From positions 1 to 20,446 of the IMG/VR virus record IMGVR_UViG_3300031601_000055: 20,446 bases of DNA; one strand, written 5' to 3'. The notes beneath the pieces were generated by a model. That model ran no database searches, was not told the origin of the DNA, and saw nothing but the letters and a program-made list of their open reading frames with translations. The stretch comes from a virus. This document shows, piece after piece, positions 1,156 through 19,225 of this stretch. The position numbers and the translations under genes are program-made. How positions within the stretch are numbered: the first letter of the stretch is position 1; every line of letters begins with the position of its first letter.

Positions 1156-1335
1156 ATGATGATGACCAAAGAAGAAAAAGCGCAGTTTGAAGCAATGGTG
1201 TCAGCCTCACAGGTTATTCGTACCTGGACTACTGTGGCCGTTGAGTCAGGTCATCCGACCTGTTGGATGGATGATGTTGACGATATCAGGAAAATAGCCT
1301 GTATCGGATTGGGATTGAAAGATGCCAAGCTATAA
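1156..1335 (+). CDS. small hypothetical protein (59 aa)
   Basis: I chose the ATG at 1156 because GAGG (1146-1149) lies six bases upstream. The in-frame ATG at 1144 overlaps the previous stop and would add four residues, but has no good ribosome site. The acidic product has an N-terminal helix (TKEEKAQFEAMV) and a Cys-Trp-Met-Asp-Asp segment. No family is recognised. Its 3' end overlaps the next gene by 14 bases. Confidence 0.5.
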   Translation: MMMTKEEKAQFEAMVSASQVIRTWTTVAVESGHPTCWMDDVDDIRKIACIGLGLKDAKL

Positions 1336-1750
1336 AATCAAAAAACGGTCTCCAAAATGGGATAGTATTTTGAAAACCGGTTACTATATATATTCCAGAA
1401 TCTACTCGAAATGCAAGAATGGCCGGGCCTTTAGGCGTTACAGGATGGCTGGGCCTTACAGAAGCCGGAAGAAAGCAGCAGCGGCAGCCGGAATGCTCAC
1501 CTTAAAATTTAATGAATTTGCTAAGAAAGTCGAAAAGGAAGAAAAACAAGCATCGCGGCCAGACACAGAACAAGCGCCAAACAGGATGAAAATGGATAGA
1601 GAATCAGTGATGAAGCGTTGGGATAGTTGGTCGCAATATTATCGTGAAGGTGGTCGCGCTTCCTGGCCACGGGATTCGTTTGAGAGTTTGCTTGATTATT
1701 TTGAGAATGAAATCGCAGAAGCGATAAGCAGGTCTGACATGCAAAATTAG
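1322..1750 (+). CDS. hypothetical basic protein (142 aa)
   Basis: Unknown function. The N-terminal half is very basic (YKIKKRSPKW, then Arg/Lys-rich segments including RSRKKAAAAA), which suggests nucleic-acid contact. The C-terminal half is acidic and Trp-rich (KRWDSWSQYYREGG) and ends in a predicted helix. The gene starts inside its upstream neighbour. Its first 12 or so codons are repeated, in diverged form, at 1856-1905 downstream, including the motif YKIKKRSPKW, so this locus has undergone partial duplication. No known domain is visible. Confidence 0.5.
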   Translation: MPSYKIKKRSPKWDSILKTGYYIYSRIYSKCKNGRAFRRYRMAGPYRSRKKAAAAAGMLTLKFNEFAKKVEKEEKQASRPDTEQAPNRMKMDRESVMKRWDSWSQYYREGGRASWPRDSFESLLDYFENEIAEAISRSDMQN

Positions 1751-1763
1751 CCGTCTAACATTA

Positions 1764-1829
1764 GTTCTGCGAAGAGCTAGGATAGAATACGTCACAAGTT
1801 GCGTATACGCAACTTGGTCTTCTTAGAAC
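1764..1829. repeat. nested inverted repeat with a perfect 22-bp palindrome
   Basis: The core at 1795-1816 is a perfect 22-bp palindrome, CAAGTTGCGTA followed by its exact reverse complement. It is flanked by two further matching pairs: GTTCT (1764-1768) with AGAAC (1825-1829), and GAAGA (1771-1775) with TCTTC (1818-1822). There is no T-run after it, so it is not an ordinary terminator. It lies between the gene at 1322 and the duplicated fragment at 1853. It could be an operator, a recombination or processing site, or an inserted palindromic element; the sequence alone does not decide. Confidence 0.7.
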
Positions 1830-1852
1830 GGCAATTGGGGGGGGGATGAATA

Positions 1853-1954
1853 ATGTTACCAACGTATAAAATCAAGAAAAGAAGCCCGAAGTGGGGGGGG
1901 GATAGCATATCCCGGGCCGGAAGAAGAAAAACTGAAGACACACAGGAGAGCATC
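1853..1954 (+). pseudogene. duplicated 5' fragment of the 1322-1750 gene
   Basis: This stretch encodes LPTYKIKKRSPKW..DSI, which matches the start of the upstream protein (MPSYKIKKRSPKWDSI). In this copy a run of nine G (1893-1901) replaces the three G of the upstream copy and adds Gly-Gly in frame. The rest of the parent gene is missing apart from a short resemblance (GRRKTE against SRKKAA). The frame runs on into the gene at 1955, so an N-terminally extended fusion protein is formally possible. The ATG at 1853 is preceded only by a G9 run, whereas the ATG at 1955 has a much better ribosome site. Confidence 0.5.
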
Positions 1955-2134
1955 ATGGAACTAAACCCGGGAGAGGTCAGGATTTATTATCGCACAAAAG
2001 TTGGAGATATCGACACCGAACTTGACGAAGCACTGGGAGTCGTCTTAGAGAAATTCGGGTATCGAAGGTGGGCATCTGGATTTGAAATAGCAATTGATGT
2101 TCGGAATCTGGTGTTCGGCAAGAAGAAAAATTGA
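1955..2134 (+). CDS. small conserved-looking phage protein (59 aa)
   Basis: I chose the ATG at 1955 because AGGAGAG (1944-1950) sits at good spacing, rather than the in-frame ATG at 1853 in the duplicated fragment. The product (VRIYYRTKVGDIDTELDEAL, then FGYRRWASG) resembles small proteins common in phage early regions. In these a short beta strand is followed by an acidic helix and an Arg-Trp-Ala-Ser-Gly turn. No biochemical role is known to me. It is the last rightward gene before the convergent leftward operon. Confidence 0.6.
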   Translation: MELNPGEVRIYYRTKVGDIDTELDEALGVVLEKFGYRRWASGFEIAIDVRNLVFGKKKN

Positions 2135-3288: not shown

Positions 3289-3354
3289 GATTTTCCTCCA
3301 GGCAGTTTATTTGCCAGTGCCCAGGGCGTTAAGGTCTACTATTAGACTAAATTT
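3287..3354 (-). repeat. leader repeat, copy A
   Basis: About 68 bases covering the ribosome site and upstream leader of the 2794-3288 gene. It is clearly similar to copy B at 3551-3618. In leftward orientation both copies contain TTAGTCTAAT, then a CGCCCTGGG motif, then a TGGAG ribosome site just before the start codon. Copy A also overlaps the stop codon of the upstream gene. Confidence 0.6.
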
Positions 3355-3553
3355 CGGCTAATTCGTCGGGATCGGTGTAGGGATTTTCTTCGCGCCATAC
3401 AAAATCCTCGTGATCACTGCAACAACAATTTCCTGCGTGTCCAGGGTGTAGCTCAGTATAGTAGCTGCCATTTTCGTCGCACAATAATACGGCGTGTGCC
3501 GACCGGTAATTGATATTTCTTTCCAGTTCTTTTAAAGCTTCTTGTTTTTCCAT
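3347..3553 (-). CDS. small hypothetical protein with Cys/His cluster (68 aa)
   Basis: The acidic product has a central Cys/His-rich stretch (HPGHAGNCCCSDHED), which could bind a metal, although the spacing matches no zinc finger I know. A CTGGAG site precedes the ATG. The N-terminal helix contains ELERNIN, also seen in the next upstream gene (IERNIN), and the two genes share the identical bases ATTGATATTTCTTTC (plus strand) there. A partial relationship between them is therefore possible. Function unknown. Confidence 0.5.
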   Translation of the reverse strand: MEKQEALKELERNINYRSAHAVLLCDENGSYYTELHPGHAGNCCCSDHEDFVWREENPYTDPDELAEI

Positions 3554-3618
3554 GATTTTCTCCAGGGCGGTTTATTGCCTTACCCAGGGCGGTGAAGTTA
3601 TTCGATTAGACTAATTAG
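3551..3618 (-). repeat. leader repeat, copy B
   Basis: The second copy of the leader repeat, upstream of the 3347-3553 gene. Two shorter relatives of its AAC-T-A-CGC-TGGG core lie in the leader of the operon, at 3931-3948 and 3986-4008. The repeat could be a shared translational or transcriptional control element, or a trace of gene-by-gene duplication. Confidence 0.6.
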
Positions 3619-4400: not shown

Positions 4401-4501
4401 TTTTCACCCCCCTTCTTATCGTAAATATCCAGAAAGATTGCAATAGCTTGGCGAACCAATTCCGCCGTAGGATATTCCATCAGCCCTGCCCTCAAAAGCA
4501 T
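4397..4501 (-). CDS. short RHH-like remnant or small protein (34 aa)
   Basis: ATG at 4501 overlaps the end of the Csx16-like gene; TGA at 4399-4397 overlaps the next ATG. The product contains TAELVRQAIAIFLDIYDKKGG, which aligns with the second helix and tail of the intact ribbon-helix-helix protein (AETVRRALDKFLD, then RKKGG). The beta-strand half needed for DNA binding is missing. It is either a truncated paralogue or a decayed gene. Confidence 0.4.
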   Translation of the reverse strand: MLLRAGLMEYPTAELVRQAIAIFLDIYDKKGGEK

Positions 4502-4854
4502 TGTGTCCAGCGACCGGCAGCGGCTGGCACCGGTCGTTTATGTTCCCATTTTCTATGGGTACGTTCTCCAAATAACTGTTCTATCTTATATGTCACAGGC
4601 GGAGATGCGATTGATCGCACTATCTTCGCTGTCAGCTCGACTCCCCTTAATTCAGAGGTGAGTCGTAATGGGACTTCGGTAAAGCTCGCTGTCAAACACG
4701 ACAACGAGTGAGGAAGAACGCCGAGGACATGGCGTCCTGTCACTTCTGCGGGACTGGCGTGGCTAAGAACTTCCACGTCTTTAGTCACAATCCCCTCTTC
4801 GACCAGATATTCTACTAGGCCAGGATGTCTGGTAACAACAACGTCAATTTTCAT
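4492..4854 (-). CDS. Csx16-like (VVA1548 family) protein, possible phage ring nuclease
   Basis: The N-terminal ~75 residues carry the pattern I associate with Csx16: VTRHPG at 7-12 followed by a helix, VLGVLP at 43-48, and PLRLTSELRGVEL at 62-74. Csx16 accompanies type III CRISPR systems. To my knowledge it has been reported to degrade cyclic oligoadenylate, the second messenger of those systems. In a phage it could blunt host type III immunity; this is inference. The ATG overlaps the ERCC4 stop (TTATGA) and an AAGGAG site lies inside the ERCC4 end, so the two are translationally coupled. The last ~25 residues are basic, look unlike the family, and are partly encoded by a GC-rich inverted repeat (4511-4536). 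An intact cyclic-nucleotide pocket cannot be judged from here. Confidence 0.65.
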   Translation of the reverse strand: MKIDVVVTRHPGLVEYLVEEGIVTKDVEVLSHASPAEVTGRHVLGVLPHSLSCLTASFTEVPLRLTSELRGVELTAKIVRSIASPPVTYKIEQLFGERTHRKWEHKRPVPAAAGRWTQCF

Positions 4855-5186
4855 AATTCTTTTCTCCTTATTTCAATCACCTTGTCAATTGACTTCGGGT
4901 TCATCCGACTGCGGTAATTACCGGTAGCCAAGTCACCTAGGCTTGTCTCTATAACCAGTGCAAAATATTCGTAGGATTTTGAGCGCTTGAGTTCTCGCTC
5001 AAAGCGATCTCTACCGATAGAGAGGGAGCCGACACAATCGTCTAAATTTTTCCGTTCGATTGCGATCTGGTCCTCGTATCCCTGGATTGAGTAATCACCG
5101 GTAGACAGAGTGGCGCGGATAGAAGGCGTCTTGAACTTGTAGGCGTTTTGCTCACGCGTATCGATAATTAGGGTGATATTATCCAT
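4851..5186 (-). CDS. ERCC4-family nuclease domain protein, C-terminally short (111 aa)
   Basis: The protein has the ERCC4/XPF nuclease signature: LIIDTREQ with Asp9 and Glu12, TGDYS with Asp31, and ERKNLDD (44-50), which fits the GDXnERKXXXD motif. Metal-binding acids are therefore present. After the YFALVIE strand and NYRSRMNP it ends at residue 111, well before the usual end of the domain, where other phage members continue for tens of residues. The final residues (IEIRRKEL) also encode the ribosome site of the next gene. It may be truncated and inactive as a nuclease, or have a reduced role such as DNA-end binding. The ATG at 5186 has only a weak site (GAG). A leftward promoter lies at 5399-5371. 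Confidence 0.7.
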   Translation of the reverse strand: MDNITLIIDTREQNAYKFKTPSIRATLSTGDYSIQGYEDQIAIERKNLDDCVGSLSIGRDRFERELKRSKSYEYFALVIETSLGDLATGNYRSRMNPKSIDKVIEIRRKEL

Positions 5187-5370
5187 TGCAATGTTCTCAT
5201 TTTTTGAGCGATTTTGTCAAGAGGGGGGTAAAAACAGAACTTATAATAATATCAAGCAGCTAGGTTATAGAGGTTTGGCTAAGTATTTAATATTATTGTA
5301 TATATTCCGTTGGGGCCTCTTTGGTTTGACTTTGACATGAGGGGGGGGGGTGAGAAGCCTTAATCAAAGA
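5187..5370. other. intergenic leader of the leftward cassette with a G10 run
   Basis: No gene is visible on either strand. It is AT-rich, with an uninterrupted run of ten G at 5341-5350. The motif TTGTCAAGAGG occurs twice (5214-5224 and 5393-5403), each time giving a leftward TTGACA. Only the second copy is followed by a reasonable -10. The rest is probably the untranslated leader of the ERCC4-like gene. Confidence 0.4.
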
Positions 5371-5715: not shown

Positions 5716-6185
5716 TGGCAAAAGCAGGTCAGCCCACCAAATTCAACGAGAAGGTTAAGAAGCAAATCTTGTGTATGGCCCTCAAGGCGTTTACTGACGT
5801 TGAGATGTCCAATATTCTAAGTATTGACGAATCTACACTTACCCATTGGAAGAAAAAATACCCCAAGTTTTTCACGTCCGTAAAGGATGCAAAGGCTGAA
5901 GCTGACAAGAATGTGGTCAAATCTTTGTACCAAAGGGCATGTGGTTTTGCATGTCCGGCTGAGAAACGCACTGTAGTTGTTGATGGGGTGGAACGCACTG
6001 AAATGATTACAAAATTTTATCCGCCTGATCCTACCAGTATGATTTTTTGGTTGAAGAACAGGGACAGGGCGAACTGGAGAGATAAGCAGGATGTTGCCGT
6101 GAGTGGAGATTTGACGGTTAACGTAGTCAAGTTTGGTAAAATTGACGACGATATTGGGAAAAAGAAAGATGGACCGGAGACCTAG
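5715..6185 (+). CDS. terS: terminase small subunit
   Basis: TerS binds the packaging start site on concatemeric phage DNA and delivers it to the large subunit. The 156-residue protein has an N-terminal helix-turn-helix-like region (about residues 22-50: FTDVEMSNILSIDESTLTHW). A helical oligomerisation region follows, then the segment PPDPTSMIFWLKNRDRANWRDKQDV that is typical of many phage small terminases. The C-terminus is charged and probably contacts TerL. It sits directly in front of terL with a one-base overlap (TAGTG). The start overlaps the stop of the upstream small gene. Confidence 0.85.
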   Translation: MAKAGQPTKFNEKVKKQILCMALKAFTDVEMSNILSIDESTLTHWKKKYPKFFTSVKDAKAEADKNVVKSLYQRACGFACPAEKRTVVVDGVERTEMITKFYPPDPTSMIFWLKNRDRANWRDKQDVAVSGDLTVNVVKFGKIDDDIGKKKDGPET

Positions 6186-8506
6186 TGTCTAGCACTGTGA
6201 CACTCCCCAACAATTGGCATCCCAGACCCGACCAGATGGCACTATGGGCCTACATGGAGGCAGGTGGTAAGCGAGCCGTCGAAGTCGCACATAGGCGCTG
6301 GGGGAAGGATGATTGTGCTTTACATTATACAGCAACAGCAGTTTTCCAACGCGTAGGCAATTACTGGCACATGCTTCCCAAATATGACCAGGCGCGCAAG
6401 GCTATCTGGGATGCTGTTAACCCAAGGACGAGCTTGAGACGCATTGACGAGGCATTTCCCAAAGAAATCCGCAAGCGGACCCGCAACGATTCGATGTTTA
6501 TAGAGTTTCGTAACGGATCGACTTGGCAGCTGGTAGGGTCTGACAATTATAACGCTATCGTCGGATCACCCCCGGTCGGTTTAGTTCTTTCCGAGTGGGC
6601 GTTGGCCGATCCCATGGCATGGGCGTATCTTTCCCCTATCCTTGAGGAAAACGGCGGTTGGGTTATGTTCGTTTATACTAGCAGAGGGAACAACCACGGG
6701 AAGACTACTTTTGAGACAGCGAAAAGAACTGAAGGCTGGTTCGCCGAAAAGAAAACAGCGATCGAAACTAAAGTTTTTAGCACTGAACAGCTCGGGAGAA
6801 TACAAACTGAATATATTGATCTCTTTGGGTTAGAATTGGGGGGAGCGTTATTTTCCCAGGAATACTTATGCGTACCGGCTAGTACTTTAATCTGGACTGA
6901 TAGAGGCCAGAAACCGATTGAGGGACTTTCGGTTGGAGATATAGTATTAACTCATGCAGGCAGATGGCGCAAGATTACAAAATGTTTTTGCCGGGAATAT
7001 GAAGACGATTTGTGTAAAATAAAATCTTCTGGGAATTGCCAGGCCTTAATTTGTACTCCCGAACATCCAGTGCGTACATATAATCCAAAAACCCAGAAAT
7101 ATGAATGGGAAAAAGCTTCAGACATAACGGGGACTCACTGGATTACTTTTCCAAAGACACAATCTTCAAATTCTTTTATAAAGCCTGAATTAATAGAGTT
7201 GATTGGGTGGTATATCACCGAAGGCTCTGTAATGAAAAATGCAGTTTCTTTTTCATTAAATAAGAAAGAGACACATTATGTACAGAGAATCCAGGAAATA
7301 GCTGCCGAGTTTGGCAAATGTAGCAAACATGAACTTCCCACGGCTATGATGGTGCAGGTGTGTTCATGTAGATTAGCTGATTTTTTGGTTACGCATTGCG
7401 GATCTGGAGCTGCAAATAAAAGAATTCCATGGAATTTAATATCTGGGCACGAAGAACTTTTATATAACACTTTAATTGACGGTGATGGATGTAGAGGACA
7501 ATATAAAAGTGCTACAGAGGTATATTCGACTATTAGTCTATCTTTAGCAAGAGATGTACAGATGTTGGCTCACATAATCGGGAAAAGAGCTCGGATAAAT
7601 AAAGGCAAGACAGCAGGAATTGGTTTTATTGAAAAACGAAAGTGTAATTTTTCTGATTCTTATAATGTTTTTATGTCACCAACAGAAAAGAAAAAGTGTG
7701 GTAGACAAAAGGTTATATTGGCTAAACATTCTGCTGCATGCAAGGTTCTTTCTGTAGAAAAAGAAAAATATATAGGGAAGGTTTATAATATAGCAGTCCA
7801 GTTTGACGAAAGTTATGTAGCTAACGGGGTGGTTGTCCATAATTGCGATTTTGCCGGTGCGGTCATGGGCGCTTATTATGCTACCGCGATTGCCAAGGCC
7901 AGGGCTGAGAAGAGAGTAACAGTTGTTCCGTGGCAACCAGGACTAGAGGTTGACACCTTTTGGGATCTTGGTTTAGACGATTCGATGTCGATCTGGTTCA
8001 TGCAGCCAATGGGAAAATCATACCACTGGATTGACTACTGTGAGGGCGTAGGATTCGGCATGGAGCACTATGCTAAGCAACTCAAGGCTAAGCCCTACGT
8101 ATACGGTAACCATTGGATGCCGCACGATGCCCGCAACAGGGAACTTAGCACTGGGGAGATAGCGCACTCGGTAAAAAAAACTGCTGAAAATTTAGGTATT
8201 AAGCCTATAATAGTGGTTGACAGGGCTCGCAATATGGATGTAATTATGAGAGAGCATATCCCGGCCTGTCGGAATGCTATTGCTGTAAGCTGGTTCGACG
8301 AAGGAAAATGTTCTAAAGGTCTTGCAGGGTTAGAAAATTATCGATCAGAGTATAGCGAGAAGAAAAAGAAGTTAGGTGATAGGCCATTGCACGACTGGAC
8401 CTCTCATCCCGCGGACGCTTTTAGAACTTTTGGCGCAGGGTATAGGCAGATTACGAAACAAGAATTACCAAAAAGACAGTATCTTGGCGGATTCATGGGG
8501 AGATAA
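6185..8506 (+). CDS. terL: terminase large subunit interrupted by an intein
   Basis: TerL is the packaging motor and genome-cutting nuclease that docks on the portal. It starts at GTG (6185), overlapping the terS stop. Of the 773 residues encoded, 448 are extein. The ATPase part has an adenine-contact segment (HPRPDQ, 12-17), a Walker A-like AHRRWGKDD (35-43, with Asp where Ser/Thr is usual, as in several phage terminases), and Walker B VGLVLSE (131-137, Glu137 catalytic). The junction QEYL-CDFAGAVMGAYY is the start of the RNase H-like nuclease domain. Its first Asp is residue 555, directly after the intein's +1 Cys554. Later nuclease elements include DTFWDLGLDD and the end SHPADAFRTF. Splicing must occur to rebuild the nuclease site. 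Confidence 0.92.
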   Translation: MSSTVTLPNNWHPRPDQMALWAYMEAGGKRAVEVAHRRWGKDDCALHYTATAVFQRVGNYWHMLPKYDQARKAIWDAVNPRTSLRRIDEAFPKEIRKRTRNDSMFIEFRNGSTWQLVGSDNYNAIVGSPPVGLVLSEWALADPMAWAYLSPILEENGGWVMFVYTSRGNNHGKTTFETAKRTEGWFAEKKTAIETKVFSTEQLGRIQTEYIDLFGLELGGALFSQEYLCVPASTLIWTDRGQKPIEGLSVGDIVLTHAGRWRKITKCFCREYEDDLCKIKSSGNCQALICTPEHPVRTYNPKTQKYEWEKASDITGTHWITFPKTQSSNSFIKPELIELIGWYITEGSVMKNAVSFSLNKKETHYVQRIQEIAAEFGKCSKHELPTAMMVQVCSCRLADFLVTHCGSGAANKRIPWNLISGHEELLYNTLIDGDGCRGQYKSATEVYSTISLSLARDVQMLAHIIGKRARINKGKTAGIGFIEKRKCNFSDSYNVFMSPTEKKKCGRQKVILAKHSAACKVLSVEKEKYIGKVYNIAVQFDESYVANGVVVHNCDFAGAVMGAYYATAIAKARAEKRVTVVPWQPGLEVDTFWDLGLDDSMSIWFMQPMGKSYHWIDYCEGVGFGMEHYAKQLKAKPYVYGNHWMPHDARNRELSTGEIAHSVKKTAENLGIKPIIVVDRARNMDVIMREHIPACRNAIAVSWFDEGKCSKGLAGLENYRSEYSEKKKKLGDRPLHDWTSHPADAFRTFGAGYRQITKQELPKRQYLGGFMGR
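6869..7843 (+). mobile_element. intein with LAGLIDADG homing endonuclease, inside TerL
   Basis: A 325-residue in-frame insertion, residues 229-553 of the TerL frame. It begins with Cys229 (block A: CVPASTLIWTDRGQKPIEGL), has block B TPEHPV, and ends with a typical block F/G (KVYNIAVQFDESYVANGVVV, then His552-Asn553). Cys554 is the first extein residue, so all splicing residues are present. Two endonuclease motifs are visible: LIELIGWYITEG (336-347, Glu346) and LLYNTLIDGDG (425-435, Asp434). Both active-site acids are kept, so homing activity is plausible. The intein DNA looks more AT-rich than the terL DNA around it, which suggests a separate origin. Confidence 0.92.
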
Positions 8507-9417: not shown

Positions 9418-11601
<2,184 letters not shown>

Positions 11602-14635: not shown

Positions 14636-15355
14636 ATGGCTGCTACATATAACTTTACGGATGGCACTATTGGGGGTCAGATGATCCCGAGTAGCCATTC
14701 TAAGATAAAATCCAAGAAGGCTGCTGTGCGGCCTTTATCACCAATAGATCAGCATCTTTTCGTTTTACGAAATTATGTTGATTTCACAAAGCAAACTTTG
14801 GATACGGGCGATACAGATGTTGCCCAGGTTCTGAATGTGATTGCCGAAACCACAGTTTTAGATGTTTGGGCTCGGATCGTCACGGCTGAAGGTACTGGAG
14901 CAATCCTCAACCTTGGCTATGGCGGTGATGTAGACAAGTGGGGTCAGGAACTCGCCATGGATGTCACAGGGGTAGTCCCTACCATTTACACCGCTTCGGA
15001 TACCTGGGATGCCGCTTCTCTTCCCGATGGCGATGAAGAAGCCAAAGAAGTTACGGTGAACGGGGCACAGTTGGGTGATATGTGCGTTGCTTATTACAGC
15101 ATTGACCTAGCTGACGTGGCGTTAACTGCCTCTGTTACGGCAGCCGATACAGTCACCGCGTTATTGCTGAATAACACAGGCGGTACACTTGATCTTGGCA
15201 CGGCTACTTTGACTGTGATGGTAAATAAAGCTCCACTAAGGCAAGTCCCGGTCTACTTCTCTACTGCCGACACTATTGATTTTTCCGGTGCCGGAACGGT
15301 CGATTGTGATGGGCTCATAGTTGAGGTAAGCGCACTTTGTTTCAGAACTGACTAA
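14636..15355 (+). CDS. head-associated beta-rich protein, long paralogue with inserted module (239 aa)
   Basis: Same framework as the preceding 149-residue protein, with about 13 extra basic residues near the N-terminus and an insertion of roughly 80 residues (about 112-196). The inserted module (GAQLGDMCVAYYSIDLADVAL, TASVTAADTVTALLLNNTGG) resembles a small beta module I recognise from phage head or fibre proteins. After it the shared C-terminal part resumes at PVYFSTADTID. This suggests a decoration or fibre protein extended outward by one domain. The initiation region is identical to that of the capsid gene. Confidence 0.6.
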   Translation: MAATYNFTDGTIGGQMIPSSHSKIKSKKAAVRPLSPIDQHLFVLRNYVDFTKQTLDTGDTDVAQVLNVIAETTVLDVWARIVTAEGTGAILNLGYGGDVDKWGQELAMDVTGVVPTIYTASDTWDAASLPDGDEEAKEVTVNGAQLGDMCVAYYSIDLADVALTASVTAADTVTALLLNNTGGTLDLGTATLTVMVNKAPLRQVPVYFSTADTIDFSGAGTVDCDGLIVEVSALCFRTD

Positions 15356-18118: not shown

Positions 18119-19225
18119 ATGGCTAAAACTCTTTGGCGGCAAACATTTAAGCAAAACGGGGTTCTTCTAAAGAATGCCGGTGTTTCGATTTATCTTGCCG
18201 GTACGTCTACACCTGCCCGTGTTTTTGATGCCAACGATAGCCTTCATGACACAGCGCCTCAAATCTATACCGATTCAGCAGGATTCGCTGATTTTTATAT
18301 TGATCCCGATGATTATTCTAGTGGGCAGCTATTTGACATAGTATGTCAACCCGATGCTCGCTGCAACACTGAAAACGAAGTAAGACTTCCATCTTTACAG
18401 ATTCTTCAGGATACGGAAGGATACAGAAATTATCGAAATGTATTTGCTCAAACATCTATGCCCACTATAGGTATGCGGGAAAATGACCTCTGGTTTGATA
18501 CGGATAATGACAATGAACCCTATAGATATGATGGAACCAACTGGTCTTCAATAAGAGACGGCACAATAGCAACAGCGGCCAACACCGCTAATTGGAGTCA
18601 GATAGCAGATGATGATACCCATAAACCTGACGATGGCGCTGATGTAACTAGTGCTAATAATTGTCTCAATCCTGGTGATTATACATCACAGCATAATTGT
18701 CTCAATCCTGGTGATTATACATCACAGCATAATTGTCTCAATCCTGGTGATTATACAGCCAGTCATACGGCCGATAACACGGTTTATGTAAATGGTTCTA
18801 CCACCCAAGCAGCCTATGGCTTTGATATGTATGGCGAATTTAGAATGCGCGCTGGGCAAGCTATAGATTTCCGTAGTTCAGGAGATGTGTTTTATGCGGC
18901 TATATTTGCAGATAATAATTATTTATATGTGCACTGTAATCGTGGAATTTACATGACTGCTGAAAGTGGTTATGCCTTGAGATTGAAATGTTCATATGAA
19001 GTGCAGATTTTTTCCCCAGCCATGGTTCCTTATACTAATTTATCTACAGATTTGGGATCACTTAGTTATAGATTCAGGGATTTATATGTACGTCATGTCA
19101 ATACAAGTGGACAAGTAGCTTGCGTAGATATAGTGAGAGCTTATAAGGCTGCTGGAAGACTTAAACTTTATAGCATTGTAGACCATTCTTTCTTGAGTCA
19201 GTATGAGTTTGAATTTACAACATAA
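18119..19225 (+). CDS. tail fibre protein (368 aa)
   Basis: The N-terminal ~90 residues (FKQNGVLLKNAGVSIYLAGT, then IYTDSAGFADFYIDPDDY) resemble the attachment part of phage fibres. MRENDLWFDTDNDNEPYRYD and ANWSQIADDDTHKPDDGA (about 120-177) are segments common in phage fibre repeats. Three tandem NCLNPGDYTSQH-type units follow (about 181-213). The distal part has TDLGSLSYRFRDLYV, typical of fibre tips. It should bind a host surface receptor. No C-terminal chaperone peptidase is seen. GAGG precedes the ATG. Confidence 0.7.
   Translation: MAKTLWRQTFKQNGVLLKNAGVSIYLAGTSTPARVFDANDSLHDTAPQIYTDSAGFADFYIDPDDYSSGQLFDIVCQPDARCNTENEVRLPSLQILQDTEGYRNYRNVFAQTSMPTIGMRENDLWFDTDNDNEPYRYDGTNWSSIRDGTIATAANTANWSQIADDDTHKPDDGADVTSANNCLNPGDYTSQHNCLNPGDYTSQHNCLNPGDYTASHTADNTVYVNGSTTQAAYGFDMYGEFRMRAGQAIDFRSSGDVFYAAIFADNNYLYVHCNRGIYMTAESGYALRLKCSYEVQIFSPAMVPYTNLSTDLGSLSYRFRDLYVRHVNTSGQVACVDIVRAYKAAGRLKLYSIVDHSFLSQYEFEFTT
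18658..18757 (+). repeat. 36-bp tandem repeat, about 2.8 copies, in the fibre gene
   Basis: The unit starting AATTGTCTCAATCCTGGTG recurs at 18659, 18695 and 18731, exactly 36 bases apart and without mismatches across the shared part. It encodes the 12-residue unit NCLNPGDYTSQH. Being in frame, copy-number change would lengthen or shorten the fibre shaft by 12 residues per unit. Confidence 0.95.

Follow-up and report, generated by a model that had tools for sequence, protein, structure and literature searches.

A perfect palindrome of 22 bp, CAAGTTGCGTATACGCAACTTG, lies at positions 1795-1816 of the 20,446-base virus record analysed here (the whole of which is referred to as the window), and it exceeds chance expectation. 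It was delimited by symmetry and shuffle tests as an unstranded element of two 11-bp arms with no spacer between them, and it may tentatively be read as a two-fold symmetric double-stranded DNA site for a dimeric DNA-binding protein of either the phage or its host. The palindrome occurs once in the window and is its longest perfect one, the runners-up reaching 14 bp, and a zero-spacer arm of at least 11 bp was obtained in only one of 500 dinucleotide-preserving shuffles of the window. Thus, both the perfect 22-bp inverted repeat and its improbability in 20 kb, as claimed in a preliminary description of this DNA, are borne out. When the dyad is read outward from its centre, it ends at 11 bp and is followed by seven consecutive mismatches. 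The palindrome is also non-coding, whereas coding sequence makes up approximately 85% of the window under the chosen gene set.

Surrounding genes and a truncated gene copy

An ORF at 1322-1750 and a gene at 1955-2134 are separated by 204 bp, and in this gap the palindrome begins 44 nt past the stop codon of the ORF, on its sense strand. The gap is preceded by rightward genes at 1-693, 800-1144, 1144-1335, and 1322-1750 (all on the + strand, the last three overlapping at their ends), and the genes beyond 1955-2134, from position 2244 onward, run leftward. Gene 1-693 encodes the end of a primase-like protein, with 37% identity to a BK063671 protein annotated as DNA primase; the only annotated phage records it matched were BK063671 and MK170447, both of which are listed with methanogen hosts. 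The ORF at 1322-1750 (+) encodes 142 aa with a basic N-terminus. No relatives of it were found in 19 candidate stretches, in 14 stretches retrieved with a degenerate peptide pattern or in four related records, and its protein had no match among annotated phages. An AlphaFold model built without relatives had a mean pLDDT of 50.3; a likeness of the N-terminus to AP2-like DNA-binding folds is no more than an unsupported impression. The likely start of gene 1955-2134 (+) is ATG 1955, located behind AGGAG.

A diverged second copy of ORF 1322 survives as a truncated 5' remnant at 1853-1954 (+), which continues in frame into gene 1955; the palindrome is located between the intact copy and this remnant. 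Positions 1318-1361 and 1852-1895 are 70% identical and represent a partial gene duplication, at whose edge the palindrome had rightly been located in the preliminary description. The remnant reads YKIKKRSPKW, two extra Gly and DSI, and its likeness to ORF 1322 is limited to the start. Within the ten codons compared between the two copies, all eight nucleotide differences are synonymous, suggesting that the second copy was probably maintained as a protein before its truncation, as far as a small sample of ten codons can indicate; the codon preceding these ten shows a Ser/Thr difference, and two Gly codons have been added just after them in the second copy. Elsewhere in the window, self-matches offset by 36 bp at 18657-18767 correspond to a tandem repeat encoding NCLNPGDYTSQH in the ORF at 18119-19225.

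Two runs of nine G are found on the + strand close to the palindrome, one just downstream of the element (1837-1845) and the other inside the remnant (1893-1901), where it comprises two Gly codons more than the intact copy. Together with a run of ten G at 5341-5350, they are the only + strand runs of at least eight G in the window, and they are possible slippage sites or sequencing-sensitive spots. It is conceivable, and in our view very improbable, that the palindrome and the two G runs form a single switchable early control region, in which a dimer-binding site or a self-dimerising RNA upstream of slippery G tracts would set the translation of a fusion between the remnant and gene 1955 and yield a variable early product.

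Flanking pairs and RNA folding

Two further pairs of complementary segments flank the palindrome on the + strand, GTTCT/AGAAC (1764-1768/1825-1829) and GAAGA/TCTTC (1771-1775/1818-1822), and had been taken as parts of a larger nested dyad. They are indeed complementary; however, the inner pair is separated from the palindrome by 19 nt on the left side and by 1 nt on the right, and the arrangement is therefore asymmetric and off the axis of the palindrome. Two nested 5-bp stems also appeared in 50, 183, and 663 of 3000 shuffles with flanks of 31, 40, and 50 nt, respectively. Within 1740-1850, the predicted probability of these pairs is only about 0.05 because a competing three-way fold is favoured, which makes them a minor alternative fold. 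The stretch 1764-1829 folded alone does adopt them, and 5 of 1000 shuffles, in which the palindrome was also broken, fold as well.

The favoured fold spans 1745-1836 (+) and consists of an outer stem (1745-1748/1833-1836, 1750-1754/1828-1832, and 1755-1758/1823-1826), whose left arm contains the stop codon of ORF 1322-1750, a hairpin at 1761-1780 with a GCGA loop, and the palindrome hairpin. With these hand-picked ends, it has a z-score of -4.5 and was equalled by none of 1000 shuffles that also destroyed the palindrome, and by 40 of 2000 shuffles that kept it. For the region 1740-1860, the + strand gives a z-score of -2.15 (3 of 200 shuffles equal, the palindrome being destroyed as well); the predicted energies of the + and - strands are -32.4 and -25.0 kcal/mol, and the two are alike relative to shuffles (z -2.15 and -2.16). 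When the palindrome was kept and fixed flanks of 40, 60, 80, and 100 nt were shuffled, the real fold was equalled in 260, 237, 710, and 392 of 1000 cases on the + strand and in 204, 624, 813, and 430 of 1000 cases on the - strand, giving no excess on either. Since flanks shuffled around a fixed palindrome fold equally well, the surroundings contribute no convincing structure. The excess of the larger nested structure vanishes under this control, and we dropped that structure as evidence; a nested dyad beyond chance is not convincingly supported. An integron attC site was considered for the outer arms by eye and dropped. With regard to a MITE-like element, there was no second copy in the window, and the exact outer arms at 48-78-nt spacing were not present in the viral contigs.

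We also scanned the whole window for folding (1696 tiles of 96 nt, starting every 24 nt, with 30 shuffles each). Z-scores below -4 were confined to eight tiles in six regions, all away from the palindrome element, over which the - strand tiles at 1753 and 1777 had z-scores of -3.3 to -3.4; the 24-nt tile starts failed to frame 1745-1836. The strongest RNA-fold excess of the window, with z-scores from -6.0 to -6.8 against 30 shuffles, was observed at 14689-14832 (+), within the ORF at 14636-15355. Where the rightward and leftward gene blocks converge, 2134-2244 forms a long bulged hairpin and a second hairpin (z -4.06, none of 200 shuffles equal), its excess over shuffles being larger than that of 1740-1860. 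ARAGORN detected no tRNA or tmRNA genes in the window, and Rfam 15 gave no match there at gathering score; at E-values up to 10, four matches were obtained in 1600-2000, the best with an E-value of 0.072 and 20.4 bits versus a gathering score of 65.

Related viruses and sequence searches

Searching for the palindrome in related phages, as proposed in the preliminary description, did not recover it. In exact searches, the 22-mer and an 18-mer were absent from the viral contigs and a 20-mer from the species genomes; the 20-mer was also absent from four related records at up to three mismatches. Of the 20 loci fetched, which total 198,500 bases, one contained perfect zero-spacer palindromes of at least 18 bp, namely two overlapping, AT-only ones in L013. 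Distant blastn searches with 1740-1850 returned only chance-level matches of 19-35 nt, in two phage records (E 4) and two plasmid records (E 0.9 and 3), and no mention of the 16-mer core GTTGCGTATACGCAAC was found in the literature searched.

Two partial relatives, L004 and L007, cover the map place of the palindrome, and both have different DNA there. The pieces of L004 DNA that align, which come mostly from structural genes, are 71-86% identical. L004 carries relatives of gene 1955 (window 1955-2134 versus L004 2010-2192, 39% identity over 61 residues) and of the HTH-like protein (42%, 76 residues), has different small genes upstream, and lacks a comparable palindrome at the corresponding place. 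L007, which was retrieved with the left-end primase-like fragment (one of 12 stretches), is 82% identical in the primase end, carries different genes at the corresponding place, and has no such palindrome there. A near-identical record, L003 (99.98% identity to the window), starts at window position 4779. Considering that the collections searched may omit the records nearest to the window, the absence of the palindrome is weak evidence as regards near-identical phages.

The structural genes of the window match terminase, portal, and major head protein families. Among the annotated-phage matches listed for portal and capsid (15 of 52 and 15 of 62 records, respectively), identities are 20.6-31.3% and the host is bacterial wherever one is named. 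Portal searches recovered the same three viral loci twice (three of three and three of 104 stretches), and none of 32 stretches from species genomes contained a portal relative. The large terminase subunit (ORF 6185-8506, +, 773 aa) contains an intein at codons ~229-553, with above-cut-off matches to Pfam Intein_splicing (E = 8.7e-10) and LAGLIDADG_3 (E = 1.8e-6); the 451-aa ORF at the terminase place in L004 looks uninterrupted. The portal protein (9418-11601, +) has 29 consecutive glutamines near its C-terminus (residues 688-716), and the longest glutamine run in the L004 portal is three.

Possible roles of the palindrome

Operators of dimeric phage repressors are known for both HTH and Arc/Mnt-like RHH proteins, and the palindrome has the two-fold symmetric DNA that characterizes them. 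It would offer approximately two helical turns of symmetric double-stranded DNA, with half-sites GTTGCG/CGCAAC, to a dimeric DNA-binding protein, presumably encoded by the phage or its host, and binding of such a protein could act to damp or to punctuate early transcription running rightward toward gene 1955. The sharp edge of the symmetry at 22 bp and the presence of small regulator-like genes nearby are consistent with this reading. The preliminary description had assigned RHH and HTH proteins to the phage: an RHH-like small gene does match phrog_876 (E = 2e-5) and the Arc-like phrog_582 (E = 6e-4), whereas the HTH matches of a second small gene are weak and below cut-off. Both genes run leftward (RHH-like 2573-2731 and HTH-like 2244-2576, both -) and lie 0.4-0.9 kb from the palindrome.

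Several observations count against an operator. The palindrome is located beyond the 3' end of the RHH-like and HTH-like genes, inside the rightward gene block, and not at the start of the block of the regulators as in known operators of dimeric repressors. There is no clear promoter beside it: a promoter-like match at 1734-1761, just upstream, has 9 of 12 positions and belongs to a class with 17 members found in the window versus 11.7 ± 3.8 expected. A near-consensus extended -10 sigma-70 promoter-like site (4058-4030, -; TTGACA-17-TATATT with TG, 11 of 12) lies ahead of the leftward genes and far from the palindrome. The site is also single: in the 20,446-base window, no further 22-mer match with up to three mismatches and no 11-bp half with up to one mismatch was detected apart from the palindrome and its two arms, gapped half-site matches are at chance level (9 versus 7.9 expected), and no additional copies or half-sites were observed at other control points of this fragment. 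Moreover, L004 keeps a relative of the HTH-like protein yet has no such palindrome; the RHH-like protein has no match at the same place in L004 (L004 3796-3954 gave no alignment and no RHH match), and the comparison with L004 therefore bears on the HTH-like protein only. Of the symmetric operator originally suggested, then, the dimer site is weakly favoured, and the location of the leftward genes, the lack of a clear promoter, and the single site speak against it.

Other features were observed in the leftward genes. Their leaders at 2742-2775, 3291-3345, and 3551-3600 (-), as well as L004 5265-5310 and 3950-4000, have GCCCTGG-type repeats or hairpins immediately before the ribosome site, and CGCCCTGG occurs three times versus 0.31 expected. 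Among the five leaders folded, that before the RHH-like gene had a z-score of -3.9 and one from L004 a z-score of -2.4, the other three being approximately at chance. Further along, a Cas_VVA1548/Csx16 gene overlaps an ERCC4-type nuclease gene (4492-4854 and 4851-5186, both -). The Csx16 match is above cut-off for Pfam PF09652 (E = 9.2e-15) and below it for NCBIfam TIGR02620 (20.7 bits, cut-off 46.35). Because Csx16 is named in passages of a ring-nuclease paper (PMC12409355), this gene is a candidate for counter-defence against type III CRISPR.

A second explanation, which we consider rather doubtful, is that the palindrome acts at the RNA level, as a hairpin in the rightward early transcript where the ORF 1322 message ends, being either a leaky intrinsic-terminator-like element or a processing or stability element. 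Its RNA form is a 9-bp hairpin with a UAUA loop and pair probabilities of 0.94-0.99, followed by the tail GUCUUCUUAG, on the sense strand behind a gene. It is the sole uninterrupted Watson-Crick hairpin of at least 7 bp (3-9-nt loop) touching non-coding DNA of the window, a count that misses G-U pairs and bulges, and at least two stronger hairpins exist. However, 60 shuffles give an expectation of 0.4 uninterrupted hairpins of at least 9 bp with a 3-8-nt loop per window, and thus the full two-fold symmetry, not the hairpin strength, is the unusual property; a self-complementary 4-nt loop would be a 1-in-16 coincidence for an RNA element. Like intrinsic (rho-independent) terminators, the palindrome has a T-rich tail, with at least five T in the tail window, and was classed as terminator-like; unlike them, it has interrupted T's only, and such sites do not exceed chance in the window (9 versus 7.0 ± 3.1 in shuffles). 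The tail GTCTTCTTAG contains no real T-run, in agreement with the preliminary description and in contrast to L007, where a GC hairpin behind the rightward small genes is followed by TTTTTTT. RNase III processing hairpins of the T7 type lie between phage early genes, and the palindrome is likewise an intergenic hairpin in an apparent early gene block; it differs from them in its short stem and in that no conserved position or sequence was found. The chance-level folding of the fixed-boundary flanks and the lack of an Rfam match at gathering score also argue against an RNA role.

It is about equally doubtful that the palindrome has no function and is a chance or rearrangement by-product in a decaying gap around the copies of ORF 1322. 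For instance, an imperfect inverted repeat could have been 'corrected' by template switching after duplication, recombination, and deletion; mutation of this type at such repeats is treated in passages of two papers (PMC7202029 and PMC3820800). The truncated gene copy and the two runs of nine G adjoin the palindrome, no counterpart of it was found elsewhere, and when many windows are scanned, something as rare as 1 in 500 should turn up and be reported. On the other hand, there is no imperfect ancestor to demonstrate such a step, the palindrome is flawless in its symmetry, with sharp edges at a length that would suit a dimer site, and it lies outside genes in a gene-dense window.

A recombination or end-forming site (an integrase core, a resolvase site, or a protelomerase-type telomere site) is highly improbable: a perfect palindrome of this length beside a duplication would suit it, and the telO/telRL protelomerase sites of linear plasmid phages have a perfect 22-bp palindromic core, a likeness in length, but the flanking segments are off the centre of the palindrome and are not concentric nested inverted repeats, no further copies were detected in the window or in four related records, and ResT-TelK_cat (PF16684), Phage_integrase (PF00589), and Resolvase (PF00239) were each found in none of five records that are not known to be complete (that of the window and four related ones).

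Because complete two-fold symmetry is unusual, the balance tips slightly to a dimer site, ahead of a transcript hairpin and of a neutral relic. The nested-dyad part of the original observation is weak and does not merit pursuit on sequence alone, and nothing tested, with L004 and L007 as the comparable relatives, shows that the palindrome is conserved or extraordinary. Its function could be of an ordinary kind, for instance that of a small hairpin or of a place where a two-part DNA-binding protein docks, and it raises no general question. If it is an operator, it would add one more regulator site, useful for locating the control circuit of a phage from a group with few relatives found in this analysis.
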